Positions 13,588-36,535 are shown, counted from the first letter of the stretch. The stretch: DNA of 39,736 bases from Acetobacteraceae bacterium (GCA_030037175.1 JASHRV010000009.1:1-39736); one strand, 5' to 3'. The notes: generated from the letters alone by a model not told the origin. A program made the numbers and translations.

Positions 13588-13601
13588 CCAAGGTGGGTCG
13601 A

Positions 13602-14921
13602 ATGTCCAAGATAGACTCCAGCAATCGGGCCGGATCGCGGCTTCCAGCCGGGTCGTGCCCGGGCCGGCGCGCCTTCCTCGGCGGCGCCCTCGGCACCGCT
13701 GCCGCCTTCGGGGCCACGCGCCGCGCCCGCGGCGCCTCGCGCACCGAGATCACCTTCGCCAGCGCGAAATTCTTCGGCAAGGAGACCGTGGCGCAGGTCG
13801 TCGAGGCCTACAACGCGAGCCAGGGCCGCGTGCACGTCACCTATGTCGAGCTGCCGCCGCCGAGCGAATCGACGGAAGTGCATCAGCTCCTGGTCCAGCA
13901 GCTCGCGCGCCAAACCGGCTCGCCCGATGTCTTCACCCAGGACGTGATCTGGATCGCCGAATTCGCAGGTGCGGGCTGGGCATTGCCGCTCGATCAGGAG
14001 CTCGGCGCGGATGTGCGCAAGCAGTATTTCCCCGGTGTCGTCCAGGCCTGCACCTGGGGCGGAAAGCTGACCGCTCTGCCCTGGTTCATCGATTCCGGCA
14101 TGCTCTACTACCGCACCGATCTGCTCGGCGGCGCTGCGGTGCCCGAAACCTGGGACGAGCTCGTCTCGATCGCGCAATCGGTCGAGAAATCGGGCCGCGC
14201 GCGGTTCGGCTTCCTCTGGCAGGGCAAGCAGGCGGAGGTGCTCGTCTGCGACCTGGTCGAGTTCATCGCCTCCAACGGCGGCGCGATCCTCGCGCCGGAC
14301 GGCAAGACCGTCCTGATCGACGACGAAAAATCCGTTCAGGCCGTGCAGTTCATGCGCGACACGATCACGCGCTACAAGATCAGCCCGCAGGACGTGCTGA
14401 GCTGGGACGAGGAGCCTTCGCGCCGGCCCTTCACCGGCGGGCAGGCCGCTTTTCTACGCAACTGGTCCTATGTCTATACGATCGCGCAGGACCCCAAGGC
14501 ATCCTCGGTCGTGGGCAAGGTCGGCGTGGCACCGCTGCCGCATTTCCCGGGCGGGCGCAGCGCGGCCTGCCTTGGCGGCTATCAGTACGGGGTCAATGCC
14601 TCGACCAAGAACCGCGACGCGGCCATCGACTTCGTGAGCTGGATGTCCTCGCCGGCAACGCAGCTTCATTTCGCAACCGAGCTTGGCCTTGCCCCGACGC
14701 GGCCGGATGTCTTCGACGAGCCCAGGCTGGCCGAGAGCCAGCCCTTCATGCAGAAGCTGAAACCCGTGTTCCTCGGCGCGACGCCCCGCCCGGTGACGCC
14801 GAAATATGCCCAGGTGACGCTCGTGCTGCAGTCCTCCGTCTCGCGCGCGCTCGCCGATGGAAACGTGAAGCAGGCACTGGCCGGTGCAAAGGATCGAATC
14901 AGCGCCATTGTGGCCACGTGA
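13602..14921 (+). CDS. Sugar ABC transporter substrate-binding protein
   Basis: Tat-like N-terminus 'CPGRRAFLGGALGTAAAFG', 'LYYRTDLLGGAAVPETWDELVSIAQ', 'GGYQYGVNASTKNRDAAIDFVSWMSSP'; RBS AAGGTGG before ATG 13602. Confidence 0.92.
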   Translation: MSKIDSSNRAGSRLPAGSCPGRRAFLGGALGTAAAFGATRRARGASRTEITFASAKFFGKETVAQVVEAYNASQGRVHVTYVELPPPSESTEVHQLLVQQLARQTGSPDVFTQDVIWIAEFAGAGWALPLDQELGADVRKQYFPGVVQACTWGGKLTALPWFIDSGMLYYRTDLLGGAAVPETWDELVSIAQSVEKSGRARFGFLWQGKQAEVLVCDLVEFIASNGGAILAPDGKTVLIDDEKSVQAVQFMRDTITRYKISPQDVLSWDEEPSRRPFTGGQAAFLRNWSYVYTIAQDPKASSVVGKVGVAPLPHFPGGRSAACLGGYQYGVNASTKNRDAAIDFVSWMSSPATQLHFATELGLAPTRPDVFDEPRLAESQPFMQKLKPVFLGATPRPVTPKYAQVTLVLQSSVSRALADGNVKQALAGAKDRISAIVAT

Positions 14922-14943
14922 GCGACCGTGAGAGCAGGCGTCC

Positions 14944-15891
14944 GTGAGCAGGACCGTCGCCGTCGACGGCGTCCAACACGCAGCACAACCTTCCTTCGCC
15001 TTGGTCGGGGCCGGGCGGATCGATTTCGCGCCGCTGCTGCTTCTGCTGCCGACCGCGATTTCGCTCGGTTCCGTCTCTCTCTATCCGATCCTCGACGGGC
15101 TCTGGCTCTCTTTTCACAACACCACGCTCGCGACCCGGGAAAACCGCTTCGTCGGCTGGCTCAATTACCGGCTGCTGGCCACCGATCCTGACTTTTGGAG
15201 CGCATGGCGGCACACGCTCGAATTCACCGCGATCTCCACTCTCGCGGAGACCGTGATCGGGCTCGGCATGGCGCTGCTTCTGGTCGAATGGTTTGCCGGG
15301 CGCGGCTTCGTGCGCGCGGCGATGCTGATCCCCTGGGCGATGCCGACCGTGGTCACCTCCAAGATGTTCGGCTGGCTCTTCGACGGCCAGAACGGGCTGG
15401 TCAACTGGGTGCTCCGCTCCCTGCACCTGATCGGCGGCAATATCGACTGGTACGGCTCGCCAAATACGGCGCTCGGCACGATCATCGTCGCCGATGTGTG
15501 GAAAACGGCACCGTTCATGGCGCTGCTTCTGATGGCGGGATTGCAGACAATTCCGGGTTCTCTGCTGGAGGCGGCCCGCATCGACGGCGCCGGAGCGTGG
15601 CAGACATTCTGGCGCGTGCGCCTGCCGATGCTGGCACCGATATTGCTGATCGCGGCGATGTTCCGCGCGCTCGATGCCTTCCGGATCTTCGATCTCGTCT
15701 ATGTGCTGACCGGCGGCGGCCCGGCGGACTCGACCGAGGTGCTCTCCACCCTCACCTACAAGACGTTGTTTTCCGCGCTCGAATTCGGCTACGGCTCGGC
15801 GCTCTCGACGGCGATGTTCGCAACCGAGGCGCTGATCGCGCTCGGCTTCGGCATCGTGATCGTGCGCAGCATGCGCCGGCAGGGACGTTGA
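14944..15891 (+). CDS. Sugar ABC transporter permease, MalF-like
   Basis: Transmembrane protein with EAA loop 'LLEAARIDGAGAWQTFWRVRLPMLAP'. Confidence 0.92.
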   Translation: MSRTVAVDGVQHAAQPSFALVGAGRIDFAPLLLLLPTAISLGSVSLYPILDGLWLSFHNTTLATRENRFVGWLNYRLLATDPDFWSAWRHTLEFTAISTLAETVIGLGMALLLVEWFAGRGFVRAAMLIPWAMPTVVTSKMFGWLFDGQNGLVNWVLRSLHLIGGNIDWYGSPNTALGTIIVADVWKTAPFMALLLMAGLQTIPGSLLEAARIDGAGAWQTFWRVRLPMLAPILLIAAMFRALDAFRIFDLVYVLTGGGPADSTEVLSTLTYKTLFSALEFGYGSALSTAMFATEALIALGFGIVIVRSMRRQGR

Positions 15892-15893
15892 GG

Positions 15894-16739
15894 ATGGCGG
15901 CGGTCGGACAGAGGCGGACCGCAGGCCAGAGCGCGGTCTTCTTCGCCGGCGCGGCGGCGATCGTGCTCTGGTCCGCCGGTCCCTTCCTCTGGCAGCTCTC
16001 CACTTCGTTTCAGCTCGACCGCGCCCTGGTGAGCTCCACGCCGAGCCTCATTCCCCATCCCTTCATCCTCCAGCATTTCTACAACATCTTCGCCGTCAAG
16101 CACTTCCAGCTCTACGTCCTCAACTCGACCATCGTCGCGCTCGCGACGACATTCCTCTGCCTCGCCTTCGGTGCCATGGCCGCCTATGCGCTCTCGCGGC
16201 TGAAGCTGCGCCGGCGCTTCGGCCTGCTCGGATTCATCCTCTCCGTCTCGATGTTTCCGCAGATCGCGATCGTCGGGCCGCTCTATCTCCTGGCCTCGAC
16301 GCTCGGCCTGCTCGACACGTACGAGGTGCTGGTGATCATCTATCTCGCGCTCGGCCTGCCGCTCGTGATCTGGGTCCTGTTCGGCTATTTCCAGACCATT
16401 CCGGAGGATCTCGACGAAGCGGCGCGGATAGACGGCGCCGGCCCGTTCCGCATCCTGCTCTTCATCATCATTCCGCTTTCGGTTCCGTGCCTCGTCACGA
16501 CCGGCCTCCTCGCCTTCATCGCGGCGTGGAACGAATTCATGTTCGCCCTCGCGCTCACCTCGACCATCGCGCATCAGACCGTCCCGGTCGGGATCGCGAA
16601 CTTCACCAACCTCTATTACGTCCCCTGGGGAGACATCGCGGCCGCGTCGGTGGTCGTGACCCTGCCGCTCGTGCTGCTCGTTCTGTTCTTCCAACGCCGG
16701 ATCATCGAGGGCCTGACCCAGGGCGCGGTGAAGGAATGA
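15894..16739 (+). CDS. Sugar ABC transporter permease, MalG-like
   Basis: EAA loop 'DLDEAARIDGAGPFRILLFIIIPLSVPCLVT'; 'AYALSRLKLRRR'; start ATG 15894. Confidence 0.92.
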   Translation: MAAVGQRRTAGQSAVFFAGAAAIVLWSAGPFLWQLSTSFQLDRALVSSTPSLIPHPFILQHFYNIFAVKHFQLYVLNSTIVALATTFLCLAFGAMAAYALSRLKLRRRFGLLGFILSVSMFPQIAIVGPLYLLASTLGLLDTYEVLVIIYLALGLPLVIWVLFGYFQTIPEDLDEAARIDGAGPFRILLFIIIPLSVPCLVTTGLLAFIAAWNEFMFALALTSTIAHQTVPVGIANFTNLYYVPWGDIAAASVVVTLPLVLLVLFFQRRIIEGLTQGAVKE

Positions 16740-17998
16740 GGCCATTTGTCGAGCCCGACTGGCCCCAGGCCTATCTCGAATCCGCCGCACGCCTCACTCG
16801 CGTGGCCGCTAAATCGCGGCTCATCCTCTGCGGATGCTGCGCCTGCATCGACAGGCTCGTCACGCTTAACGAGGCAGTGCCGGTGCTGCTCGCCGCTCGC
16901 GCGCCCGGTGCCATCCGTCTCGGGCACGAGTTGCTGCGCCGCGCCGAGGCCGGAATCGGTGGCGAGATTCTCTCTCATTCGGCCGAGGCGCTCACGCTGC
17001 TCGAGCGGCTCGACGGCAGGCGAGGCCTTGGCGGCACGGCCGCCCAGGCGGCATATGCGCTCGCTCAGCTTGGCGCGCCCGTGCTGCTTGCGCTGCAGGA
17101 CAGGACCGCGGAGCAGATCGCCCTGCTTCATCCCGACATCCTGATCGCGACCGAAGACGGGCTCGCGTGCGCGAGTGCGCTGAAGCCGCTTCGGGCGAGC
17201 GGCAAGGCGCCGCACCTCATCGTCGAATATGTTCAAGGCCGCGCTGTGGCCGGAATCGTCCCACCGCGCTCGACCCGCGTCATCGTCCGCTTCGCCGATG
17301 ACGGCATGGATCGCGATCCCCTTTTCATAAGCGGCAGCCGTCATCTCGCCCGCGAAGCCGCGTGCGGCATCCTCGCCGGATTCAACGCGATTCCGCCGCA
17401 CGCGCTCAACGCAACGCTCGCCGAGGCGGCGGACATCGCCGCGCGCTGGCTGAGCGCCGGCCTCGCCCCCATCCATGTCGAGCTCGGTGATTTTCCGAAC
17501 CTCTCCGATCGGCAGGCGGTCTTCGCCGCCCTCACCGGCCGCTTCACCTCGCTCGGGATGAACCACAACGAGCTCCTCTCGCTGTTGCCCGGAAACGCGC
17601 CGGTCCGCGCCAAGGCGAGATATCTGGCCGAAACGCTGGGCGCGGAGCGCGTCAGCATCCATGCCGACGACTGGGCGCTTTCGGTCACACACGGCGATCC
17701 CTGGCGCGAGCAGCAGGCGCTCCTCGCCGGCTGCCTGCTCGCGGCGAGCCGCGCCGCGCACGGGCGGCCCACGGTGCCGGATTCGGTGCCCGCAGGCGCG
17801 CGCTTTTACCTGCCGCATCCCGCCTTCGCCGAGGAAGATGGCTGGTACGCCGTCTCCTGCCCCGCCCCCTTTCTGCCGAGACCGGCCAGCACGATCGGTC
17901 TCGGCGACACGTTCGTTGCCGGAACGATGCTGATGCTCGGCCGCGCGCGCGACGAGCACGGATCCGATCCGCGGCGAGCTTCCGACAACAGCGCCTGA
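16736..17998 (+). CDS. ADP-dependent phosphofructokinase/glucokinase-family sugar kinase
   Basis: 'GGTAAQAAYALAQLG', 'PIHVELGDF' (HxE), 'LGMNHNELLSLL' (NxxE), 'TIGLGDTFVAG' (GxGD); ATGA overlap with permease. Confidence 0.8.
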   Translation: MRPFVEPDWPQAYLESAARLTRVAAKSRLILCGCCACIDRLVTLNEAVPVLLAARAPGAIRLGHELLRRAEAGIGGEILSHSAEALTLLERLDGRRGLGGTAAQAAYALAQLGAPVLLALQDRTAEQIALLHPDILIATEDGLACASALKPLRASGKAPHLIVEYVQGRAVAGIVPPRSTRVIVRFADDGMDRDPLFISGSRHLAREAACGILAGFNAIPPHALNATLAEAADIAARWLSAGLAPIHVELGDFPNLSDRQAVFAALTGRFTSLGMNHNELLSLLPGNAPVRAKARYLAETLGAERVSIHADDWALSVTHGDPWREQQALLAGCLLAASRAAHGRPTVPDSVPAGARFYLPHPAFAEEDGWYAVSCPAPFLPRPASTIGLGDTFVAGTMLMLGRARDEHGSDPRRASDNSA

Positions 17999-18016
17999 CA
18001 GGAGATCAAACGAGCG

Positions 18017-19054
18017 ATGAGCAACCCCCGAACCCTCCCCGATCCGGGCAAGATCAGAAGCTTCCAGCGCGTGACCACGCCGGACGGTTTTTTCCTGATC
18101 TGCGCCCTCGATCATCTGTCCGACTTCCAGGCGCTGCTCGATCCCGACCCCGCGAAGGTGGACCACCGCCGGACCGTCGCCGGCAAGATCGAGCTGATCC
18201 GCGCGCTCGCGCCCGAAGTGAGCGCCTTCCTGCTCGATGCCGAGTTCGGCCTCGCCCAGGCCATCGCCTCGCGCGCCCTGCCCGGCAACGTCGGGCTGAT
18301 GGCGAGCATCGAGAACGAGGATTACCAGATTCCGCCCGGGGCCCGGCGCACGAGGCTGCGCGAGGGGTGGAGCGTCTGGCAGGCGAAAATGATCGGGGCC
18401 GATGTCCTGAAGCTGCTCTGGTTTTTCCGCCCCGACAGCGACACCGCCGATCATCAGCGCGACGTGGTGCGTCGCCTCGTCGATCAATGCGCTTCCTTGT
18501 CGCTCCCGCTCGTCGTCGAGCCGATCTGGTATCCGCTGCCGGACGAGGACCGGAGCAGTGCCGCGTGGCGAAGCCGGCGTGTGGATGGAATCATCGAGTC
18601 CGCCGCGGAAGCGGCGGCGCTCGGAACCGACATGCTGAAGGTCGAATTCCCCGGCGAGGTCGGCAGCGAAAACGAGAGGTCGGCAGCGCTCGCTGCGTGC
18701 AAGCGGCTCGATTCCGGAATTCGCGGCCTGCCCTGGGTGATTCTCTCGGCGGGCGTCGGCTACGACGCGTTCCGCGAGCAGGTGCGGATCGCGAGCCTCG
18801 CGGGAGCCTCCGGGTTTCTTGCCGGACGCTCCATCTGGCGCGACGCGGCGGCGACGCATGAGCCGGGGCAGCGGCGCATAGCAACGGCGGAAGCCGCTGC
18901 GCGGCTCAGGGAGCTTGCCGCCATCACCCGCGCCCATGGCCGACCCTACTGCCCTGCCCTCGACAGCGACGCGGCCGCGCACGCGTTTCCGAGCGGCTGG
19001 TATCGGCACTGGAACAGCGAAAGGGCGGGAGAATCCCAGATCGCCGCCGAGTAG
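18017..19054 (+). CDS. LacD/YihT-like class I aldolase (tagatose-bisphosphate aldolase family)
   Basis: 'FFLICALDHLSDF', 'AFLLDAEFGLAQAI', 'GADVLKLLWFFRPD', 'LPLVVEPIWYP', 'ALGTDMLKVEFPGE', 'PWVILSAGVGYDAFREQVRIASLAGASGFLAGRSIW'. Confidence 0.82.
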   Translation: MSNPRTLPDPGKIRSFQRVTTPDGFFLICALDHLSDFQALLDPDPAKVDHRRTVAGKIELIRALAPEVSAFLLDAEFGLAQAIASRALPGNVGLMASIENEDYQIPPGARRTRLREGWSVWQAKMIGADVLKLLWFFRPDSDTADHQRDVVRRLVDQCASLSLPLVVEPIWYPLPDEDRSSAAWRSRRVDGIIESAAEAAALGTDMLKVEFPGEVGSENERSAALAACKRLDSGIRGLPWVILSAGVGYDAFREQVRIASLAGASGFLAGRSIWRDAAATHEPGQRRIATAEAAARLRELAAITRAHGRPYCPALDSDAAAHAFPSGWYRHWNSERAGESQIAAE

Positions 19055-20041: not shown

Positions 20042-21211
20042 TCAGGCGCTGCGATAGAGCTTCGTCATGACGAACTCGCGATGGCCAAGCGCTTCCGCCG
20101 CGGTCAGCCTGCCATTCACGGTCCGCTCGATCATCGCAATCAATCCGTCGCCTGCTTCGCCGATCGTCATCTCGCGGCGGAGTATGCCCGATACGTCGAG
20201 GTCGATATGCTCCGACATCGTACGCACTGTGCGCGGATTCCCCGAGATCTTGATCACCGGCACGATCGGATTGCCGATCACATTGCCCTGCCCTGTCGGG
20301 AAGGTGTGAACCACATAGCCGCCCGCCGCCATCAGGGTCACGCACTCCGCAGCCGCCGAGGACGTATCCATGTAATAAAGTCCGGGCCCCTGCGACGGAG
20401 TCTCGGCAGGCTGCAACACATCGATGAAGCGGCACTCGTGACCGATCTTCTCCAGATTGCCGAGTGCCTTTTCCTCGATCGTCGTGAGCCCGCCAAGGAT
20501 ATTTCCCTTGGTCGGCTGGCTGTCGGAAAGATCATCGGTCTTGTGCGCCTCGATCACTTCCTCCTGATACGCCTTCCACATGGCGTACCATTTTTCCCCG
20601 ATCTCCGGCGAGATTGCGCGCTTGCGCGCGAGGTGCTCGCCTCCCGTGATCTCCGAGGTCTCGCCGAACACGCCATAGATCCCCTGCGGAATCAGCTTAT
20701 CGTACATATTGCCGACCGTCGGGCATGAAGCGAGGCCGGTCGTCGTGTCGCTCTCCCCGCACTTGGTCGAGATCCAGAGATCGGAGACGGCAATCTCCTC
20801 GCGCTTCAGCTCCGAGGCCCATTGCAGGAACTCCTTCGCCTTGCGCGATGCATTGGCAATCGTGTTGAAATCCCCGTTCTGCTCGATCCAGAATCCCTCC
20901 GCCGGCTTGCCGGTCTCGCGGATGCCGTCGACCACACGTCCGGTCCAGGAGGGCTCGATGCCGATCACCACGACCGCGGCGACGTTCGGGTTGGCCCCGG
21001 TCCCGATCAGCGTGCGGAAATGCAGCTCAAGATCCTCGCCGAACTGCAGCCGCCCATAGGCATGCGGAATCGCGAGCGTGCCCTTCACGTTGTTCGCCAC
21101 CGCTTCGCAGGCAGCGTTCGAGAGATCGTCGAGCGGCAGGATCACCACGTGATTGCGCACGCCGACGCGGCCATTCTCGCGCCGCCATCCGGTCAGCTTC
21201 ATCGCCTTCAT
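20042..21211 (-). CDS. suyB: UxaA-family dehydratase/lyase large subunit, (2R)-sulfolactate sulfo-lyase beta (SuyB)-like
   Basis: '[32 protein letters not shown]', '[10 protein letters not shown]', '[24 protein letters not shown]', '[19 protein letters not shown]'; start ATG 21211. Confidence 0.62.
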
Positions 21212-21221
21212 ATCCCGCCCC

Positions 21222-21509
21222 TTACCAGCGCTTCGTCTTGAGGTTGTGCGTATGGACATGGCCGCCCTTGGCGACGGCAGCGACGATCCGGCCGATATCC
21301 TCGCCGTACTTGATCGCGGTGTCGCCCGGCTTCAAATCGCGCAACGCGATCTTGTGGCCGATGGGCACGTCCTCGATCGCCGCGAGCCGAAAGCTCGAAT
21401 CATCGCGCGTGACCACGCACAGCATATCGGTGCCGGCCCTCAGCCCCTCGATCACGACGACACCGACATTATCCTCCGGATCGTGCACCAGGAGTTGGGG
21501 TATGGTCAT
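21222..21509 (-). CDS. suyA: SAF-domain small subunit, UxaA N-terminal/SuyA-like
   Basis: '[24 protein letters not shown]', '[52 protein letters not shown]'; 10 nt upstream of the large subunit. Confidence 0.62.
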
Positions 21510-21540
21510 AATCAACCGGCTCCTCTCTCGACCACTGATA

Positions 21541-21572
21541 TATCTTATATAAGATAAGCTTGCCCACGTCAA
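21541..21572 (-). promoter_or_regulatory. Candidate promoter and palindromic operator for the SuyAB-like operon
   Basis: Minus strand TTGACG (21567-21572), 17 nt, TATAAG (21544-21549); 16-bp perfect palindrome TATCTTATATAAGATA at 21541-21556. Confidence 0.55.
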
Positions 21573-22649: not shown

Positions 22650-23561
22650 TCAGCCTGCCGTTGCGGCATGACGCACCGCGAGCTCGCGCACCGAGGCGAT
22701 GACCTGCCGCGCGGCGAAGCTCTGCGGGCGATGGGCAAGGCGCGCGATCATCAGCCGCCGCGCGAGCGGCGGCGCGCCGATCGGCTGCGCCGTCACCTGC
22801 CCGGATGCCGCCTCGCGCATCACCGTGAAGGCCGGCAGAACCGTGTGGCCGAGCCCGGCCACGACGAGATTCTTGATCGCCGCGACCGCATCGAGCTCGA
22901 CCGCGACGGTAAGCCCTATCCCGTGCCGCGCGGCCTCTTCTTCCAGGAGTACGCGCAGCCCGCTCTTGGGCGAGGGCAGGATCAGCTCGATCCGCTCGAG
23001 TGCTGCCAGCGGTATGACCGGCTCGGCCGAGACCGCATGCCCGGCGGCGCTGACGAGGCACAGCGGCTCGTCGATCAGGGGCTCCACGGCGAGGCGTCCG
23101 AAATCGGCGCGCTGATGCAGGATCGCGACATCGGCCTCGCGCGTCCTGATCAGCTCCATCGCAACACTGGTCGCGGCCTCGGTGACGCGCAGCGCAATCC
23201 CCGGAAAACGGTGCCGCAGCGTGGCGTAGAGATCGGGCAGCAGCCCGGCGCTGATGCTCGCGGGAAGGGCGAGCGAAACCAGGCCGACCGGCGCCGCCGG
23301 CCGGCGGCTGAGTGCTGCCGGCAGCGCATCGAGATCGGCGAGGATCTTGCCCGCCTCCGCCGCGAAGCGCGCGCCCGCCGCCGTCGGCTGCACCCCGCGC
23401 CCCGTGCGCCTGAGCAGCCTCTGGCCGAGCTCGCCCTCGAGCGCGCGGATCTGCCGGCTGAGCGCGGGCTGGGTCACACCGAGCGAAGCCGCCGCGCGCG
23501 AGACGCTCTCGAGCTCGACCGCCTTGAGGAAATAACGAAGGTCGCGGGTTTCCATCGCCAT
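22650..23561 (-). CDS. LysR-family transcriptional regulator
   Basis: 'RDLRYFLKAVELESVSRAAASLGVTQPALSRQIRALEGELGQRLLRRTGRGVQPTAAG'. Confidence 0.93.
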   Translation of the reverse strand: MAMETRDLRYFLKAVELESVSRAAASLGVTQPALSRQIRALEGELGQRLLRRTGRGVQPTAAGARFAAEAGKILADLDALPAALSRRPAAPVGLVSLALPASISAGLLPDLYATLRHRFPGIALRVTEAATSVAMELIRTREADVAILHQRADFGRLAVEPLIDEPLCLVSAAGHAVSAEPVIPLAALERIELILPSPKSGLRVLLEEEAARHGIGLTVAVELDAVAAIKNLVVAGLGHTVLPAFTVMREAASGQVTAQPIGAPPLARRLMIARLAHRPQSFAARQVIASVRELAVRHAATAG

Positions 23562-23613: not shown

Positions 23614-24408
23614 ATGCCGGGACGGCTTGAAGGTCAAGTGGCACTCGTGTTCGGGGCCGGCTCAGTCGGGCCCGGCTGGGGCAACGGCAAGGCAACATCG
23701 GTGCTCTTCGCGCGCGAGGGCGCGAAAGTCGTCGCGATCGACATCAATCCGGCCGCGGCCGAGGAAACGCGCGCCATCATCGCGGGCGAAGGCGGCACGT
23801 GCGATGCCGCCACCGCCGACGTCACCTCCTCGGAAGCGGTGCGCGCCGTCGTCGACGCGGCGCTGCGCCGCCACGGCCGCATCGACATCCTGCACAACAA
23901 TGTCGGCATCACCGAAATGGGCGGCCCGGTCGAGCTTTCCGAGGAAGCCTGGCACCGCGTCCTCGATATCAACGCAACCGGAATGTTCCTCACCTGCAAG
24001 CACGTGCTGCCGGTGATGGAACGGCAAGGAAAAGGCGCGATCGTCAACATCTCCTCGCTCGCCGCGATCCGCTACACGGGCTACCCGTACATCGCCTATT
24101 ACGCGGCGAAGGGCGCGGTGAACCAGTTCACGGTCGGGCTCGCGCTGCAATACGCGGCCAAGGGCATCCGCGTGAACGCGATCATGCCCGGCTACATGAA
24201 CACCCCGCTCATCCACCAGCAGATCGCGGGCCAATATGCCTCCGGCGAGGAGATGGTGCGCGCGCGCGATTCCCTCTCGCCCACCGGCAAGATGGGCACC
24301 GGCTGGGACATCGCCCATGCCGCGCTCTTCCTCGCTTCCGACGAGGCCGCCTACATCACCGGCGTCTGCCTGCCGGTCGATGGCGGCGTGCATTGCCGCG
24401 TCGGTTGA
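23614..24408 (+). CDS. Short-chain dehydrogenase/reductase
   Basis: Cofactor-binding N-terminus 'VALVFGAGSVGPGWGNGKAT', 'HNNVGITEMGG', 'YIAYYAAKGAV' (YxxxK), 'ITGVCLPVDGG'. Confidence 0.92.
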   Translation: MPGRLEGQVALVFGAGSVGPGWGNGKATSVLFAREGAKVVAIDINPAAAEETRAIIAGEGGTCDAATADVTSSEAVRAVVDAALRRHGRIDILHNNVGITEMGGPVELSEEAWHRVLDINATGMFLTCKHVLPVMERQGKGAIVNISSLAAIRYTGYPYIAYYAAKGAVNQFTVGLALQYAAKGIRVNAIMPGYMNTPLIHQQIAGQYASGEEMVRARDSLSPTGKMGTGWDIAHAALFLASDEAAYITGVCLPVDGGVHCRVG

Positions 24409-24431
24409 TCGTGCCCGCGCAGCAACCGCCC

Positions 24432-25691
24432 ATGACCGGCCCCCGCATCGAGGCCGACTACGCGATCGAAACCACGTTCCCGCCGCGGGAAGCGGCCGCG
24501 GTCATGGCCGGCGAGCAGTCGAGCGGCACTTTCGTTGCGGTTCCGGGCGAAACCCCGGAGCTGCTCGCCCGCGCCGCCGCCCGCGTCGAACGGATCGAGA
24601 TCGCGGGCGAGGTCGCCGAGCCCTCGCTTCCCGGCGCCGCCGCCCCGCCCGGACCCCATCGCCCCCGCGTCCGCGCCGAGGTCACGCTCTCCTGGCCGAT
24701 CGAGAATTTCGGCACCTCGCTGCCCAACCTGCTCGCCGCGATCGCCGGCAATCTCTTCGAGCTTCGCCAGCTCTCCGGCATCCGCATCCTCGATCTCCGC
24801 CTCCCGACCGCCTTCGCCGAAGCCTGTCCCGGCCCGCGCTTCGCGGTCGAAGGAACCCGCCGCCTCGCGGGCGTCCACGGCCGGCCGCTCCTCGGCACCA
24901 TCGTCAAGCCCAGCATCGGCCTGCACCCCGAAGCCATCGCCGGGCTCGTCAAAACGCTTGCCGCAGCCGGCATCGATTTCATCAAGGACGACGAGCTGCA
25001 ATCCGACAGCCGCCACGCGCCTTTCGAGACGCGCGCCCGGGCGGTGATGCGCGAGATCAACGAAGCCGCCGAGCGCAGCGGCCGGAAGGTCATGTACGCC
25101 TTCAACATCACCGGCGATCTCGATCAGATGAAGCGCCGGCACGACCTCGTGCGCGATCTCGGCGGAACCTGCGTGATGGCGAGCCTCAATTCCGTCGGCC
25201 TCGTCGGCATGCTCGCCCTCGCCCGCCACGCGGAGCTCCCGATCCACGCGCACCGCAACGGCTGGGGCGCGCTCTCGCGCCATCCGATGCTCGGCTGGTC
25301 CTATGTCGCCTGGCAGAAGATCTGGCGGCTCGCTGGCGCCGACCACATGCACGTCAACGGGCTCGCCAACAAATTCGCCGAGCCGGACGAGAGCGTGCTC
25401 GCCTCGGCGCGTACCTGCCTCACCCCGCTCTTCCCCGAAAAACCCTGCCTCGTCATGCCGGTTTTTTCCTCGGGCCAGACCGCGCGCCAGGCCGCCGGCA
25501 CCTATCGGGGGCTCGGCTCGATCGACCTCATCCATCTCGCGGGCGGCGGCATCCTCGCCCATCCCGGCGGCCCCGCCGCCGGCCTCGCCAGCCTCCGCGA
25601 AGCCTGGGAAGCGGCGATCGCGGGCGTCCCGCTCGAGGAACACGCGCGCGCCCACCCCGCCCTCGCCCAGGCGCTGGCGCGCTTTCCGTGA
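24432..25691 (+). CDS. RuBisCO-like protein (form IV-type large-subunit superfamily)
   Basis: 'LLGTIVKPSIGLHPEAIAGLVKTLAAAGIDFIKDDELQ' with KDDE carbamylation-type motif; 'IHAHRNGWG'; 'SSGQTARQAAGTYRGLGSIDLIHLAGGGILAHPGGPAAG'. Confidence 0.9.
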   Translation: MTGPRIEADYAIETTFPPREAAAVMAGEQSSGTFVAVPGETPELLARAAARVERIEIAGEVAEPSLPGAAAPPGPHRPRVRAEVTLSWPIENFGTSLPNLLAAIAGNLFELRQLSGIRILDLRLPTAFAEACPGPRFAVEGTRRLAGVHGRPLLGTIVKPSIGLHPEAIAGLVKTLAAAGIDFIKDDELQSDSRHAPFETRARAVMREINEAAERSGRKVMYAFNITGDLDQMKRRHDLVRDLGGTCVMASLNSVGLVGMLALARHAELPIHAHRNGWGALSRHPMLGWSYVAWQKIWRLAGADHMHVNGLANKFAEPDESVLASARTCLTPLFPEKPCLVMPVFSSGQTARQAAGTYRGLGSIDLIHLAGGGILAHPGGPAAGLASLREAWEAAIAGVPLEEHARAHPALAQALARFP

Positions 25692-27055
25692 CCCCGGCTC
25701 CCCTCCCCGCCAACCGGCCTCTCATCGCCTGGTATGGCGATGACTTCACGGGCGCCGCCGCCGTGATGGAAACGCTCGCCTTCGCCGGGCTTCCCGCCGT
25801 GCTTTTCCTCGACATACCTACCCCGGAACAAATCCGCGCCTTCGCCGATTGCCGCGCCTTCGGCATCGCCGGCATCGCGCGCGCCAAAAGCCCCGCCTGG
25901 ATGGAGCACGCGCTCCCGCCCATCTTCCACGCCCTCGCCCGCTTCGACGCCGCGATCGCCCAATACAAGGTCTGCTCGACCTTCGATTCCTCGCCAGCCA
26001 TCGGCTCCATCGGCCGCGCCGCAACCCTCGCCGCGCCCATCCTCGGCGGCGCCTGGACCCCGCTCCTCGTCGCCTCACCCGCCGTCGGCCGCTACCAGGC
26101 GTTCGGAAATCTCTTCGCCCGGGCCGGCGATTCCATCCATCGCCTCGACCGCCATCCCACCATGCGCCGCCATCCCGTCACGCCGATGACGGAATCGGAC
26201 GTGCGCCTCCACCTCGCCCAACAAACGAGCGCACCCATCTCGCTCGTTGATCTGGTCGCGATGAAAGCAGGCCGCGGCGACGCCGCGCTCGCCGCCGCCC
26301 TCGCCGCCGGCGCCGAAATCATCGCCCTCGACGTCGTCGATTCCGAAACGCTGCGCGAGGCCGGCCGCCTCATCTGGGCCCATCGCGGCCAGCGCCTCTT
26401 CGCGATCGGCTCCCAAGGGCTCGAGGAAGCACTCATCGCCCATTGGCGCGCCGCGAACCTGCTCGCCGCCCCGCCCCCGCCGCCGCCCGCCGCGCCGGTC
26501 GACCGCGTCGCCATCGTCTCCGGCTCCTGCTCGCCACTCACCGCCGCGCAAATCGCCTGGGCCGAAACACACGGATTCCGCGCCATCCGCCTCGACGCCG
26601 CCGGCGCGGTCGATCCCGCACGCTGGCAAACGCTCGTCCAGAACGCAGCCGCTTCCGCGCTCGCAAGCCTCGCCGAAGGCCACGACCCCATCGTCTTCAC
26701 CGCCCGCGGGCCGGACGATCCCGCCTCCGCGGCCCTCAACACCGCCCTCGCCGCCAGCGGCGCGAACGCAGAGACAGTGCATGAACGAATCGGCGACGGC
26801 CTCGGCCGTATCCTCGCCGCGCTCCGCCGCAAAGCGCGCCTTACCCGCGTCGTCATCGCCGGGGGCGACACATCAAGCCGCGCCGCCGGCGCGCTCGGCC
26901 TCGCCGCGCTCACCGCCGCCGCACCCCTGCAAGCCGGCGCCGCCCTCTTCGAAGGACACGCCGCCAACGCCAACACGCCAAAACTCGAAATCGCGCTCAA
27001 GGGCGGGCAAATGGGCGGGCCGGACTATTTCGGCCGCATCAAGGACGGCCAGTGA
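25688..27055 (+). CDS. Four-carbon acid sugar kinase family (DUF1537; OtnK/LtnK/OiaK-like)
   Basis: 'IAWYGDDFTGAAAVMETLAFAGL', 'CSTFDSSPAIGSIGRA', 'VSGSCSPLTAAQIAWA', 'VIAGGDTSSRAAGALG', 'LKGGQMGGPDYFGRI'; GTG start overlaps RLP stop. Confidence 0.9.
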   Translation: MTPAPLPANRPLIAWYGDDFTGAAAVMETLAFAGLPAVLFLDIPTPEQIRAFADCRAFGIAGIARAKSPAWMEHALPPIFHALARFDAAIAQYKVCSTFDSSPAIGSIGRAATLAAPILGGAWTPLLVASPAVGRYQAFGNLFARAGDSIHRLDRHPTMRRHPVTPMTESDVRLHLAQQTSAPISLVDLVAMKAGRGDAALAAALAAGAEIIALDVVDSETLREAGRLIWAHRGQRLFAIGSQGLEEALIAHWRAANLLAAPPPPPPAAPVDRVAIVSGSCSPLTAAQIAWAETHGFRAIRLDAAGAVDPARWQTLVQNAAASALASLAEGHDPIVFTARGPDDPASAALNTALAASGANAETVHERIGDGLGRILAALRRKARLTRVVIAGGDTSSRAAGALGLAALTAAAPLQAGAALFEGHAANANTPKLEIALKGGQMGGPDYFGRIKDGQ

Positions 27056-28980
27056 CCAGAGGCTCCGCCTCTGGACTCCACCAGGGCTCCGCCCTGGACC
27101 GGCTGGGGCCCAAGGGTCCAAGTATGGGAGGCCCCAGACCCCCAATAGCGCTGCGTGGCAAAATACTCGCCTGGCTCGAAACAACGCTCGTCCTCATCAC
27201 CGAAATCCCCGCCGCCGCGCTCGTCGTCATCGAGGTCGCCATCCTCTTCACCGGCGTCGTCTTCCGCTACGCGCTCGACAACCCGCTCGTCTGGACCGAC
27301 GAGCTCGCCGGCGCCCTCTTCCTCTGGCTCGTCATGCTTGGCTCGGTCATCGCGCTCCGCCGCGGCCAGCATATGCGCCTCTCCGCGCTCTCGCGCTGGG
27401 TCTCGCCCGCCTGGCAGGCCCGGCTCGAATCGCTCGCCGCAATGTTCGCCGCCCTCTTCGTGCTCGAGATCATCGTTCCGGCCGCGAACTATACCCAAAC
27501 GCAATGGGCGATCATCACGCCGACGCTGCAAATCCACGACAGCTTCCGCGTCGCCGCGATCCTCGTCGGCAGCGTGCTGATGCTCGCCGTCGCCCTCCTC
27601 CGCCTCGCCCGTATCTCCCGCCCGCGCGAAACGGCGCTCTCCCTCGCCGTCATCGCCGTGCTCGGCCTCGCCCTCTGGGCGGCCGCACCCGCTCTGCAGA
27701 CGCTCGGCAACGCCAACCTCGCCCTCTTTTTCGGCGTCATGGTCGCGGCCCTCGTCGCCATCGGCTGCCCCATCGCCTTCGCCTTCGGCGTCGCCACCAT
27801 GTCCTATCTCGCGCTCGTCACCAGCGTGCCGCTCTCCATCGTCGTCACGCGCATGGACGAGGGCATGTCCTCGCTCATCCTCCTCGCCGTGCCGCTCTTC
27901 GTTTTCCTCGGCCTGCTGATCGAAATGACCGGCCTCGCACGCGTGCTCGTCGCCCTCATGGCCGCCCTCGTCGGCCATCTCCGCGGCGGCCTCTCCTACG
28001 TCCTGCTCGGCGCGATGTACCTCGTCTCGGGCATCTCCGGCTCGAAAGCCGCGGACATGGCCGCCGTGGTGCCCGTGCTGTTTCCGGAGATGCGCCGCCG
28101 CGGCATGCAGGACGGTGATCTCATCGGCCTCCTCTCGACCTCCGGCGCCATGGCCGAAACGATCCCGCCCAGCATCGTCCTCATCACCATCGGCGCCGTC
28201 ACCGGCGTCTCCATCGCCGGTCTCTTCGCCGCCGGCCTCCTGCCCGCCCTCATCGGCGCGCTGGCGCTGGCCCTCACAGCCTTCCTCCGCGCGAAGGACG
28301 ATGTCGGCCGGGAGCTCCGCCGCGCCTCGCTCCGCGAGATCGCGCGCGCCTTCATCGCCGCCGCGCCCGCGCTCGTCCTGCCCGTCCTCATCCGCTGGGC
28401 CGTGGTCGCCGGTGTCGCCACCGCAACCGAGGTCTCGACCATCGGCATCGTCTACACGGTGCTGATCGCGCTCCTCGTCTATCGCCGCTTCGACTGGCGC
28501 CGCCTCGGCCCCGTCCTCGTCGAAACCGCCTCGCTCTCTGGCGCGATCCTGATGATCCTCGGCACCGCAACCGCCATGGCCTGGGCGCTCACCCAGTCCG
28601 GCTTCGCGGGCGAGCTCGCCGCTTCCATGGCAAGCGTCCCCGGCCACGCGATCGGCTTCATGGCGATCTCGGTCGCCGTCTTCGTGATGCTCGGCAGCAT
28701 CCTCGAAGGCATCCCCGCAATCGTGCTGTTCGGCCCTCTGCTTTTTCCCATCGCCGGCGAGCTCGGCATCAACCTCATCCATTACGCGATCGTCGTCGTG
28801 CTCTCGATGGGGCTCGGCCTCTTCATGCCCCCGCTCGGCGTCGGCTTCTACACCGCCTGCGCGATCGGCGGCGTCGCGCCGGAGAAGGCCATGCGCGCCT
28901 GCTGGCCCTATATCGCCTCCCTCTTCTGCGCCCTCGTCCTCGTCGCGCTCTTCCCCGCCCTCTCAATCGGCCGCTTCTGA
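27052..28980 (+). CDS. TRAP transporter fused small and large permease (DctQM)
   Basis: N-terminal DctQ-like helices 'RYALDNPLVWTDELAGALFLWLVMLGSVIALRRGQHM', then DctM-like 'GVATMSYLAL', 'YLVSGISGSKAADMAAVVPVLFPEMRRRGMQDGDLIGLLSTSGAMAETIPPSIVLI'; alternative ATG at 27124. Confidence 0.9.
   Translation: MTRGSASGLHQGSALDRLGPKGPSMGGPRPPIALRGKILAWLETTLVLITEIPAAALVVIEVAILFTGVVFRYALDNPLVWTDELAGALFLWLVMLGSVIALRRGQHMRLSALSRWVSPAWQARLESLAAMFAALFVLEIIVPAANYTQTQWAIITPTLQIHDSFRVAAILVGSVLMLAVALLRLARISRPRETALSLAVIAVLGLALWAAAPALQTLGNANLALFFGVMVAALVAIGCPIAFAFGVATMSYLALVTSVPLSIVVTRMDEGMSSLILLAVPLFVFLGLLIEMTGLARVLVALMAALVGHLRGGLSYVLLGAMYLVSGISGSKAADMAAVVPVLFPEMRRRGMQDGDLIGLLSTSGAMAETIPPSIVLITIGAVTGVSIAGLFAAGLLPALIGALALALTAFLRAKDDVGRELRRASLREIARAFIAAAPALVLPVLIRWAVVAGVATATEVSTIGIVYTVLIALLVYRRFDWRRLGPVLVETASLSGAILMILGTATAMAWALTQSGFAGELAASMASVPGHAIGFMAISVAVFVMLGSILEGIPAIVLFGPLLFPIAGELGINLIHYAIVVVLSMGLGLFMPPLGVGFYTACAIGGVAPEKAMRACWPYIASLFCALVLVALFPALSIGRF
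27056..27134. repeat. Cluster of short GC-rich palindromes
   Basis: CCAGAGGC-TCC-GCCTCTGG (27056-27074), CCAGGGC-TCC-GCCCTGG (27081-27097), then a GGGGCC...GGCCCC inverted repeat. Confidence 0.7.
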
Positions 28981-29018
28981 CTTTTCCCCCGTCCCCACCA
29001 CGAACCTGAGGAAGCTCC

Positions 29019-30032
29019 ATGCAGACACAAATGAAACGCCGCGCGCTCATGGCAACCGGGCTCGGCCTCGCTGCCGCCGCCGCAACCCGGCCCGCATCCG
29101 CCGCGCCGCATTTCACCTACAAGCTCGGCGACGATCTCCCCGTCACCCACCCGCTCAATATCGAGCTCCGCAGGGCCGCCGCCAACATCGCCGCGCGCTC
29201 ACAGGGCCGCCTCACCATCCTCCTCTTCCCCAACAACCAGCTCGGCGGTGACACGGACATGCTGACGCAGATCCGCTCCGGCGCGGTCGAAATGCTCACC
29301 ATGTCCGGCAACATCCTCTCGACGATGCTGCCCGTCGCCTCGATCTACAACCTCCCCTTCGCCTTCCCCGACTACGACCACGTCTGGGCGGCGATGGACG
29401 GCGGGCTCGGCGACTATCTGCGCGGCGAGCTCGACAAGATCGGCTTCCACGCGCTCGACAAGCACTGGGACAACGGCTTCCGCCAGATCACCAGCAGCGA
29501 GAAGAAAATCTCCGCGCCCGCAGACCTGCACGGCTTCAAGATCCGCGTGCCGGTCAGCCCCCTCTGGCTCTCGCTCTTCCACGCGCTCGGCGCCGCGCCG
29601 ACGCCGATCAACTGGAGCGAAACCTACACCGCATTGCAAACCCACATCGTGGACGGGCAGGAAAACCCGCTCGTCGTGATCGAAACCGGCAAGCTCTACG
29701 AGGTGCAGAAATACGTCGCCCTCACCAACCATATGTGGGACGGATACTTCCTCCTCCTCAACAAACCGGCCTGGACCCGCCTGCCGCCCGACCTCCAGCA
29801 AATCCTCGCCGAGGAAATGAATGCGGCCGCGCTCCGGCAGCGCAAGGACATGGTCGCAATGAACAACACTCTCCAGGCCACGCTCACCGGCCAGGGCATG
29901 ACGTTCAACACGCCCGACCGCGCGGCCTTCCGCCAAACCCTCATCGCAGCCGGCTTCTACGCCGAATGGAAGAAGAAATTCGGCCCCACCGCCTGGACGC
30001 TTCTCGAAAAATACTCCGGCCCCCTCAGCTGA
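29019..30032 (+). CDS. TRAP transporter substrate-binding protein (DctP family)
   Basis: 'KLGDDLPVTHPLNIELRRAAANIAARSQGRLTILLFPNNQLGGDTDML', 'WSETYTALQTHIVDGQENPLVVI'; Tat/Sec-like signal. Confidence 0.93.
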   Translation: MQTQMKRRALMATGLGLAAAAATRPASAAPHFTYKLGDDLPVTHPLNIELRRAAANIAARSQGRLTILLFPNNQLGGDTDMLTQIRSGAVEMLTMSGNILSTMLPVASIYNLPFAFPDYDHVWAAMDGGLGDYLRGELDKIGFHALDKHWDNGFRQITSSEKKISAPADLHGFKIRVPVSPLWLSLFHALGAAPTPINWSETYTALQTHIVDGQENPLVVIETGKLYEVQKYVALTNHMWDGYFLLLNKPAWTRLPPDLQQILAEEMNAAALRQRKDMVAMNNTLQATLTGQGMTFNTPDRAAFRQTLIAAGFYAEWKKKFGPTAWTLLEKYSGPLS

Positions 30033-33471: not shown

Positions 33472-34596
33472 ATGAAAACCCTCGAAATCGCCGTCGTGTA
33501 CGGGGACGGTATCGGCCCGGAGGTCTGCCAGGCCGCGCTCGATGTCATCGCCGCCGCCCTCGGCCCCGATCAGGCCATCCTCCGCTTCACGGAATGCAAG
33601 GCCGGCGCGGAGGAATATCGGCGCAGCGGCATCGCCTATCCGGAGGAATCGTTCGCGGGCTGCCGCCGCGCCGATGCCATCCTCCATGGCGCCGCCGGCC
33701 TGCCCGGCGTCACCTATCCGGACGGCACGGAGGCCGGGCTCGATTTCGGCCTCCTCACCCGTTTCCGCCTCGATCTCTATGCCAATATCCGCCCCATCCG
33801 CCTTTTCCCCGGCACCGCCTCGCGTCTCGCCGGCAAGCACCCCGGCGACATCGACTACGTGATCGTGCGCGAGAACACGGAGGGGCTCTACGCCGCGCGC
33901 GGCAACGGCGTCGTGCTGCGCGACGAGGTCGCAACCGATTCCCTCGTCCTCACCCGCAAAGGCACGGAGCGGGTGGTGCGCGCCGCCTTCGATCTCGCCC
34001 GCACGCGCAACGGCGCGCCGGCGGACGGCAAGCGCCGCGTCACCTGCTGCGACAAGTCGAACGTGCTCCGCAGCTACGCCTTCTTCCGCCGCGTCTTCGA
34101 CGAGGTCGCGGCGCGCTATCCCGATATCGAGGTTGACTACGCCTACGCGGACGCGATGACGGTCCATCTCGTCGAGCGGCCGGAGCATTACGACGTCATC
34201 GTCACCGAGAACATGTTCGGGGACATCATCTCCGATCTCGCCGCCGCTACCGTGGGCAGCATGGGCATGTCGCCCTCGGCCGAAATCGGCGACAGGCACG
34301 CCCTTTTTCAGGCCGCGCACGGCTCGGCGCCCACCATCGCCGGCCAGGGAATCGCCAATCCCTACGGCACCATCCTTTCCGCGGCCAGCATGCTGCTCTG
34401 GCTCGGCGAGCGGCACCGGAACGAAACCCTCACCCGCGCCGGCCGCGCGATCGAGCGCGCGGTCGCGAAAACCCTCGCCGAAGGCAAGGCCCTCACACGC
34501 GACATCGGCGGCCGCGCCTCGACACGCGACGTCGTGGACGCGGTTTCAGGCCGCTGCGCTCCCACGCAGTCAGTCATGAAGAATGTTCTTTCTTGA
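33472..34596 (+). CDS. Isocitrate/isopropylmalate/tartrate dehydrogenase family protein
   Basis: 'IAVVYGDGIGPEVCQAALDVI', 'DYVIVRENTEGLYAARG', 'VTCCDKSNVLR', 'DVIVTENMFGDIISDLAAATVGSMGMSPSAEIGD', 'FQAAHGSAPTIAGQGIANP'. Confidence 0.92.
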   Translation: MKTLEIAVVYGDGIGPEVCQAALDVIAAALGPDQAILRFTECKAGAEEYRRSGIAYPEESFAGCRRADAILHGAAGLPGVTYPDGTEAGLDFGLLTRFRLDLYANIRPIRLFPGTASRLAGKHPGDIDYVIVRENTEGLYAARGNGVVLRDEVATDSLVLTRKGTERVVRAAFDLARTRNGAPADGKRRVTCCDKSNVLRSYAFFRRVFDEVAARYPDIEVDYAYADAMTVHLVERPEHYDVIVTENMFGDIISDLAAATVGSMGMSPSAEIGDRHALFQAAHGSAPTIAGQGIANPYGTILSAASMLLWLGERHRNETLTRAGRAIERAVAKTLAEGKALTRDIGGRASTRDVVDAVSGRCAPTQSVMKNVLS

Positions 34597-35521: not shown

Positions 35522-36535
35522 ATGAAGGGGCTCCGCAGACGAACGCTGGTCAAGGCCGCCGCCGCTTCGCCTTTCGCCTTCGCCATTCTCCGCTCGCGGG
35601 CTGAGGCGGCGGAGTTCGTCTTCAAGTTCGGCAACAATGTCCCGGACAGTTATCCGCTCAATATCCGCGTCCGCCAGGCCGCGGCGCGCATCCGCAAGGA
35701 GACGGACGGCCGCTTCGATCTTCAGGTCTTCTCCAACGGCGCGCTCGGCACGGACACGGACATGCTTTCGGAGGTCCGCAGCGGCGCCATCCAGTTCTAC
35801 ACCGCCTCGGGCCTCGTCCTCTCCACCCTCGTGCCGATCACCGCGATCAATGCGCTCGGCTTCGCCTTCAAGGATTATGGCCAGGTCTGGCCGGCGATGG
35901 ACGGCAAGCTTGGGGATGTGATCCGCGCCAGGATCGATATTTCCGGCCTGCACGCGATCGACAGGATCTTCGATATCGGCTTCCGGGAGGTCACCGCGAG
36001 CACGCACCCCATCACCGATCCCGCGAGCTTCAAGGGCTTCAAGATCCGCATCCCGCCGAGCGAGCTCGGCGTTTCGATGTTCAAGGCGCTCGGCGCCGCG
36101 CCGGTGACCATCAACTTCTCGGAGGCCTATACCGCGCTTCAGACCCATGTCGTGGACGGGCAGGAGAACCCACTTTCGATCATCGACACTGCGAAGTTCT
36201 ACGAGGTCCAGAAATACGTTTCGATGACCAACCACATGTGGGACGGGTATTGGATGCTCTGCAACGGCCATGCCTGGGACGGCCTGCCCGACGATGTGCG
36301 TACGGTTGTAGCGCGCGAACTCGATCGCGCGGCGATGGAGGACCGCGCGGACATCGCAGCGCTTGACGCCTCGCTGAAGACGAAGCTTCAGTCCAAGGGC
36401 ATGATCTTCAATATACCGGACACCGCCCCCTTCCGGGAAACGCTGAAAGCGGCCGGCTTCTATGCGCAATGGCACGAGAAGTTCGGAAATGCGGCCTGGC
36501 AAGCCCTTGAATCTTATGTGGGTCCGCTCGCCTGA
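35522..36535 (+). CDS. TRAP transporter substrate-binding protein (DctP family), paralog of 29019-30032
   Basis: Shared blocks 'EAYTALQTHVVDGQENPLSII', 'KFYEVQKYVSMTNHMWDGY', 'MDGKLGDVIRARID'. Confidence 0.93.
   Translation: MKGLRRRTLVKAAAASPFAFAILRSRAEAAEFVFKFGNNVPDSYPLNIRVRQAAARIRKETDGRFDLQVFSNGALGTDTDMLSEVRSGAIQFYTASGLVLSTLVPITAINALGFAFKDYGQVWPAMDGKLGDVIRARIDISGLHAIDRIFDIGFREVTASTHPITDPASFKGFKIRIPPSELGVSMFKALGAAPVTINFSEAYTALQTHVVDGQENPLSIIDTAKFYEVQKYVSMTNHMWDGYWMLCNGHAWDGLPDDVRTVVARELDRAAMEDRADIAALDASLKTKLQSKGMIFNIPDTAPFRETLKAAGFYAQWHEKFGNAAWQALESYVGPLA

Follow-up and report, generated by a model that had tools for sequence, protein, structure and literature searches.

The window, i.e. 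the whole stretch of 39,736 nucleotides analysed here from the MAG of an Acetobacteraceae bacterium (GCA_030037175.1 JASHRV010000009.1:1-39736), contains a real and conserved module of five genes, coding for an SDR dehydrogenase, a RuBisCO-like protein (RLP), a DUF1537 kinase and the DctQM and DctP components of a TRAP transporter. With a probability of about 0.5, this operon encodes a complete breakdown route for a 2-C-(hydroxymethyl)aldonic acid, in which the lower half of the D-apiose pathway is fed by the SDR; it probably represents a rewired D-apiose pathway, with the key intermediate supplied by a different enzyme. The TRAP transporter would import the 2-C-(hydroxymethyl)aldonate, and the SDR would oxidise its C3 hydroxyl, generating a 2-hydroxy-2-(hydroxymethyl)-3-oxo acid; in the simplest case, isoapionate would be converted to 3-oxo-isoapionate. 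The DUF1537 kinase would then phosphorylate the terminal hydroxyl, and the carbamylated, metal-dependent RLP would generate an enediolate by removing the C2 carboxylate, before recarboxylating the neighbouring carbon and hydrolysing the product to 3-phosphoglycerate and glycolate. OiaK and an OiaT-type RLP would be kept, while the SDR would stand in for ApsD, ApnL and the oxidoisomerase ApnO. The genes present, their family membership, the catalytic residues, the position in the trees and the lack of ApnO, ApnL and ApsD orthologues in the 87%-complete MAG were observed directly, while every reaction, the identity of the acid and the OiaT assignment of the RLP group are inferred.

The five genes fill positions 23614-30032, are all on the + strand and are each supported by Pfam well above the cut-off (Table 1), in agreement with the SDR, RLP, kinase and TRAP genes that the earlier note had placed in this region. 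The same note had described tight coupling of the genes by GTGA overlaps, which was found for one junction: the start codons are ATG 24432 for the RLP and GTG 25688 for the kinase, where GTGA overlaps the RLP stop by four bases. This overlap is not due to chance, since a 4-bp overlap of the two genes (ATGA, GTGA or TTGA) occurs in 95 of 111 loci of relatives and the genes adjoin in 99 of the 111. Conversely, 23 bp lie between SDR and RLP, and the kinase-TRAP overlap at 27052 is probably spurious. A permease read from this GTG would be translated through both hairpins located at 27057-27097 (fold -38.9 kcal/mol, z = -2.8), and the permease alignments of relatives mostly begin 30-60 residues into the frame; both features indicate ATG 27124, or a later codon, as the likelier start. 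Elsewhere in the genome, the tandem hairpins have a single, weaker match (G000:C10:20599). The LysR encoded divergently from the module differs from the LysR type that is common to the other SDR-type loci.

Table 1. Features of the SDR-RLP-kinase-TRAP module and of its candidate regulator, with positions counted from the first letter of the window.
Feature	Position	Strand	Evidence
LysR, divergent, candidate regulator of the module	22650..23561	-	position and ORF
SDR dehydrogenase, 264 aa, proposed C3-dehydrogenase	23614..24408	+	PF13561 205 bits; also PF00106
RuBisCO-like protein (RLP), 419 aa, proposed OiaT-type transcarboxylase/hydrolase	24432..25691	+	PF00016 216 bits; NF042437
KDDE carbamylation/metal-binding motif, RLP residues 185-188	24984..24995	+	invariant in RLP alignment
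DUF1537 (SBD_N/NBD_C) kinase, 455 aa, OiaK-type	25688..27055	+	PF07005 168 bits, PF17042 115 bits; NF042436
Two perfect hairpins, gap between kinase and TRAP permease	27057..27097	+	
Fused TRAP permease DctQM	27124..28980 (frame opens GTG 27052)	+	PF06808 343 bits, PF04290 82 bits
TRAP solute-binding protein DctP	29019..30032	+	PF03480 266 bits

Comparison with the NCBIfam models gave OiaX (NF042437), a 3-oxo-isoapionate-4-phosphate decarboxylase, and OiaK, a 3-oxo-isoapionate kinase, as the top families for the RLP and the kinase, by a wide margin. The RLP obtained 442.5 bits with OiaX, followed by form III RuBisCO (238) and the two MtnW models (176 and 155). A true RuBisCO of forms I-III was rejected, with 238 bits against a cut-off of 497 and with S161, W278 and Q349 as the counterparts of K177, H298 and G381. 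Clustering with the methionine-salvage enolase MtnW, named beforehand as the outcome that would refute the kinship to OiaX/OiaK acid-sugar pairs, did not occur, the 155 and 176 bits standing against cut-offs of 514 and 409. This kinship is thus borne out at the level of the best models, but the RLP is not OiaX itself: its score lies below the OiaX cut-off of 700 bits, it shares about 46% identity with OiaX proper and, as judged from its residues, it carries E28, N107 and H307 at Rubisco positions 60, 123 and 327, where OiaX proper has D, G and Q. The two proteins share the fold, the KDDE motif and the counterparts of K175 and K334. Among 300 genomes of the same family, full-length matches to the OiaX model form two classes, one comprising seven matches above 700 bits and the other, larger one scoring 410-495 bits; identity to the window RLP is about 46% for the former and 65-72% for many members of the latter. 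Sequence comparison therefore places it in the 3-oxo-isoapionate-4-phosphate RLP family, as a member distinct from OiaX, which corrects the annotation as OiaX expected from an automatic best match. The closest solved RLP is 3nwr (421 bits, about 51% identical). A second RLP group, which includes 3nwr (L217, L057-L061) and is about 50% identical to the window RLP, is accompanied by kinase and TRAP genes, with neither ApnO nor an SDR.

The gene context of the closest relatives points to D-apiose catabolism. RLPs 61-71% identical to that of the window are found on annotated plasmids of Microvirga ossetica, Shinella and a Rhodobacteraceae strain, together with kinase, ApnO-like, Gfo/Idh/MocA (ApsD-like) and ApnL-like genes, the Microvirga ApnL passing its curated cut-off (899 vs 750 bits); a more distant RLP has a comparable context in Phyllobacterium. 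A genome scan supplied 80 further loci. RLPs 55-72% identical to that of the window are encoded in twelve loci together with ApnO, ApnL and ApsD, and the RLPs of three Ancylobacter loci of the D-apiose type (L079, L081, L082) are 69-71% identical to it. In a quick LG+G4 tree, as used for all trees here, the window RLP nests in the ApnO-linked group, its immediate position being modestly supported (SH-aLRT 80). The D-apiose RLPs described for Agrobacterium radiobacter and Xanthobacter autotrophicus, as far as they are summarised in a citing paper, are a decarboxylase and a transcarboxylase/hydrolase (Carter et al. 2018, via PMC6302742). Since the group of the window RLP is not OiaX and yet serves D-apiose clusters, we infer that it is OiaT; the RLP would then be an OiaT-type transcarboxylase/hydrolase, the group being assigned by gene context. 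Besides the presumably shared group, which occurs in D-apiose clusters and is distinct from OiaX, the likeness to OiaT, a 3-oxo-isoapionate-4-phosphate transcarboxylase/hydrolase, includes the catalytic positions common to the ApnO-linked members. The surroundings differ from those of OiaT: ApsD, ApnL and ApnO were not found with the window module, the SDR precedes the RLP, and uptake is of the TRAP rather than the sugar ABC type.

The KDDE motif expected in the RLP is present as K185 D186 D187 E188. Rubisco-equivalent positions were assigned from motifs, and at all 22 catalytic-site positions compared the window RLP is identical to 66 ApnO-linked RLPs, with at most one exception per position. 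The positions at which it differs from OiaX are relevant, as E60, N123 and H327 of RuBisCO are tied to gas addition and hydration. Among the positions at least 93% conserved in the ApnO-linked RLPs, the window protein differs at five and at the C-terminal residue, none of which is catalytic.

Similar relationships were found for the kinase, whose best NCBIfam model is OiaK (NF042436, 506 bits), followed by 3-oxo-tetronate kinase (153). The score lies below the OiaK cut-off of 700 bits, as does that of the Microvirga kinase from the cluster with confirmed ApnL (575); in the kinase tree, the window protein nests among the OiaK kinases of D-apiose clusters, with L080 and L088 as nearest neighbours and identity up to 62%, and, as noted above, its gene overlaps that of the RLP. 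These data bear on the proposal that the substrate is some other 3-oxo acid sugar, such as a linear C4-C6 aldonate, and that the RLP is a decarboxylase only. The DUF1537 family acts on several acid sugars, such as 3-oxo-tetronate and threonate, and RLPs as a family catalyze varied reactions; however, the window kinase is far from the 3-oxo-tetronate kinases, and the catalytic site of the D-apiose-cluster RLPs is fully kept, including the counterparts of N123, H327 and K334 expected for carboxylation and hydration, so that this proposal seems improbable.

An ordinary D-apiose cluster was rejected after ApnO, ApnL and ApsD had been sought in the organism's own genome: the 87%-complete MAG gave no match for ApnO, none for ApnL and no orthologue of ApsD, for which all matches were 24-32% identical. 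As a positive control, the ApnO query was tried on five relatives known to carry this gene and matched in all of them, at 77-83%. An ordinary D-apiose/D-apionate pathway might have its upper genes in the 13% of the genome that is missing, in which case the SDR would be an aldose 1-dehydrogenase that replaces ApsD, or would be unrelated to the pathway. This would agree with the D-apiose clusters in which the closest relatives of RLP and kinase reside, with the presence of ApnO near the same SDR-RLP-kinase genes in one locus (L047) and with the weak match of the SDR to a broad NCBIfam model of glucose 1-dehydrogenases (217 bits, cut-off 215). Nevertheless, besides the results on the MAG, TRAP transporters as a rule carry acids and not neutral apiose, and the SDR recurs with TRAP genes; we consider such a pathway improbable, marginally more so than the linear aldonate.

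The SDR has the classical catalytic residues of its family, with the Rossmann loop GAGSVGPGWGNG, N95, S147/S148 and Y163-K166. Its orthologues, 67-73% identical, are located beside or near the RLP in five loci (L038, L043, L047, L083, L086) and adjoin TRAP transporter genes in four others (L197, L198, L223, L224); further orthologues have a partner SDR, or adjoin ABC transporters accompanied by genes identified by eye as cyclase or SMP-30-like. Exclusive association of this SDR with RLP clusters was therefore rejected, as some orthologues have no RLP nearby and lie with ABC genes, TRAP genes or other SDRs instead. The TRAP-type uptake suggests that the simplest role for the SDR would be oxidation of an imported hydroxy acid. 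The part of oxidant given to it in the earlier note is retained, its function as a replacement of the oxidoisomerase being argued solely from gene neighbourhood. A beta-keto-acid cleavage enzyme (PF05853, 194 bits) lies beside SDR-RLP in L047, with a 58% identical relative in L043, and fits a 3-oxo-acid intermediate; likewise, pyruvate kinase in two other SDR/TRAP-type clusters fits 3-phosphoglycerate as product, both indications being circumstantial. In many loci, a second SDR family is found after the kinase. The same five functions as in the window module are combined in clusters of Azospirillum oryzae (NZ_CP054618) and Bradyrhizobium elkanii (NZ_CP126037), with RLPs 69% and 54% identical; differently from the window, their SDR belongs to another SDR family and is encoded downstream, and pyruvate kinase is added.

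Among 84 flanked loci, an SDR is present in 8 and ApnO in 50 within 6 kb, and no locus has both (Fisher p = 0.0004, uncorrected for descent and with locus classes defined after the data were seen). This exclusion corresponds to only 3-6 independent contrasts, for which a sign test is not significant. The SDR-type loci do not form a single clade (AU p = 5e-5, for a group named after the tree was seen), and at least 6 changes are needed on the RLP tree. In L047, from genome G064, ApnO is about 8 kb from the same SDR-RLP-kinase genes, and there the SDR could perform another step. SDR-type and ApnO-type loci coexist in some genomes, as in G206 (L051 and L052) and in G064, where both are on one contig; the SDR route thus looks like a second entry rather than a mere replacement. 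This would suggest that OiaK and the OiaT-type RLP form a common lower pathway that can be entered in more than one way, by the known oxidoisomerase route from D-apiose and by a dehydrogenase route from an imported branched acid.

Candidate acids that fit a 2-hydroxy-2-hydroxymethyl-3-oxo intermediate are isoapionate (C5) and hamamelonate (C6), and the C5-pathway type of both RLP and kinase speaks for isoapionate. The closest solved structure to DctP is 4oan (57% identity), whose modelled ligand may be acetolactate and was set aside as a guide to the substrate of the module. 2-Acetolactate is among the ligands reported for TRAP transporters (PMC5812351). SDR, kinase, RLP and solute-binding protein make up a short, testable gene set with which a new acid-sugar substrate of RuBisCO-like enzymes might be found.

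Hamamelonate is 2-C-hydroxymethyl-D-ribonate, or 2-carboxy-D-arabinitol, the dephosphorylated form of the night-time Rubisco inhibitor of plants. With this C6 substrate, the SDR would oxidise C3, the kinase would phosphorylate the product and the RLP would decarboxylate and then oxygenate or hydrolyse it, yielding 3-phosphoglycerate and a small acid. A precedent is the D-hamamelose pathway of Ochrobactrum anthropi, a branched-sugar route in which, according to the citing papers from which we know it, an RLP oxygenase reportedly leads to 3-phosphoglycerate and glycolate (Kim et al. 2018, doi 10.1007/s12257-018-0305-6, via PMC10176493, PMC8914248); differently from the module, that pathway starts from the aldose. 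Related SDR-type clusters hold a sugar ABC transporter and a cyclase-family gene, possibly a lactonase, which are needed for an aldose-to-aldonate route, but no lactonase or sugar ABC gene adjoins the window module. Leaves contain 2-carboxyarabinitol, which has been measured in Phaseolus (PMC9833046), and isolates from Phaseolus are the source of five Rhizobium SDR-type loci; such an origin, however, is expected anyway for bean-nodulating rhizobia. Moreover, the catalytic site of the RLP and the kinase match those of C5 (apiose) clusters, and a C6 substrate appears somewhat unlikely. That the module and its SDR-type relatives all degrade hamamelonate, imported directly as the acid by TRAP, is more doubtful; if true, a RuBisCO-like enzyme of soil and plant-associated bacteria would consume a leaf compound made by plants to switch Rubisco off.

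Further genes were noted near the module. At 13593-19054 (+) there is a separate sugar ABC operon, whose kinase is of an unusual, ADP-glucokinase-like type (PF04587, 75 bits) and which also encodes a LacD-type aldolase (208 bits, cut-off 184). A split galactarate/altronate-dehydratase-like pair, formed by a GD_AH_C large subunit and a 116-aa small protein with no Pfam match, lies at 20045-21572 (-); proteins 79% and 68% identical to the pair are encoded about 8 kb from the RLP in L091, and the pair was rejected as part of the module, its relatives being near an RLP in this locus only. The same applies to an isocitrate/tartrate-dehydrogenase-like gene at 33472-34596 (+), with relatives near RLP-kinase in two loci only (L138, 62%; L087, 58%). 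Another DctP, which shares about 52% identity with that of the module, is encoded at 35522-36535 (+).

Among the other loci, Rhizobium and Agrobacterium plasmid clusters (L221, L222, L071) combine RLP, kinase and SDR with an acid permease or TRAP genes and a conserved cyclase-family gene, several isolates coming from Phaseolus; those of L071 and L221 also contain sugar ABC genes. Finally, a haloarchaeal plasmid of Halalkalicoccus (L072) carries RLP, kinase, an ApnO-like gene and a GntP permease, which suggests that the pathway was transferred across domains.
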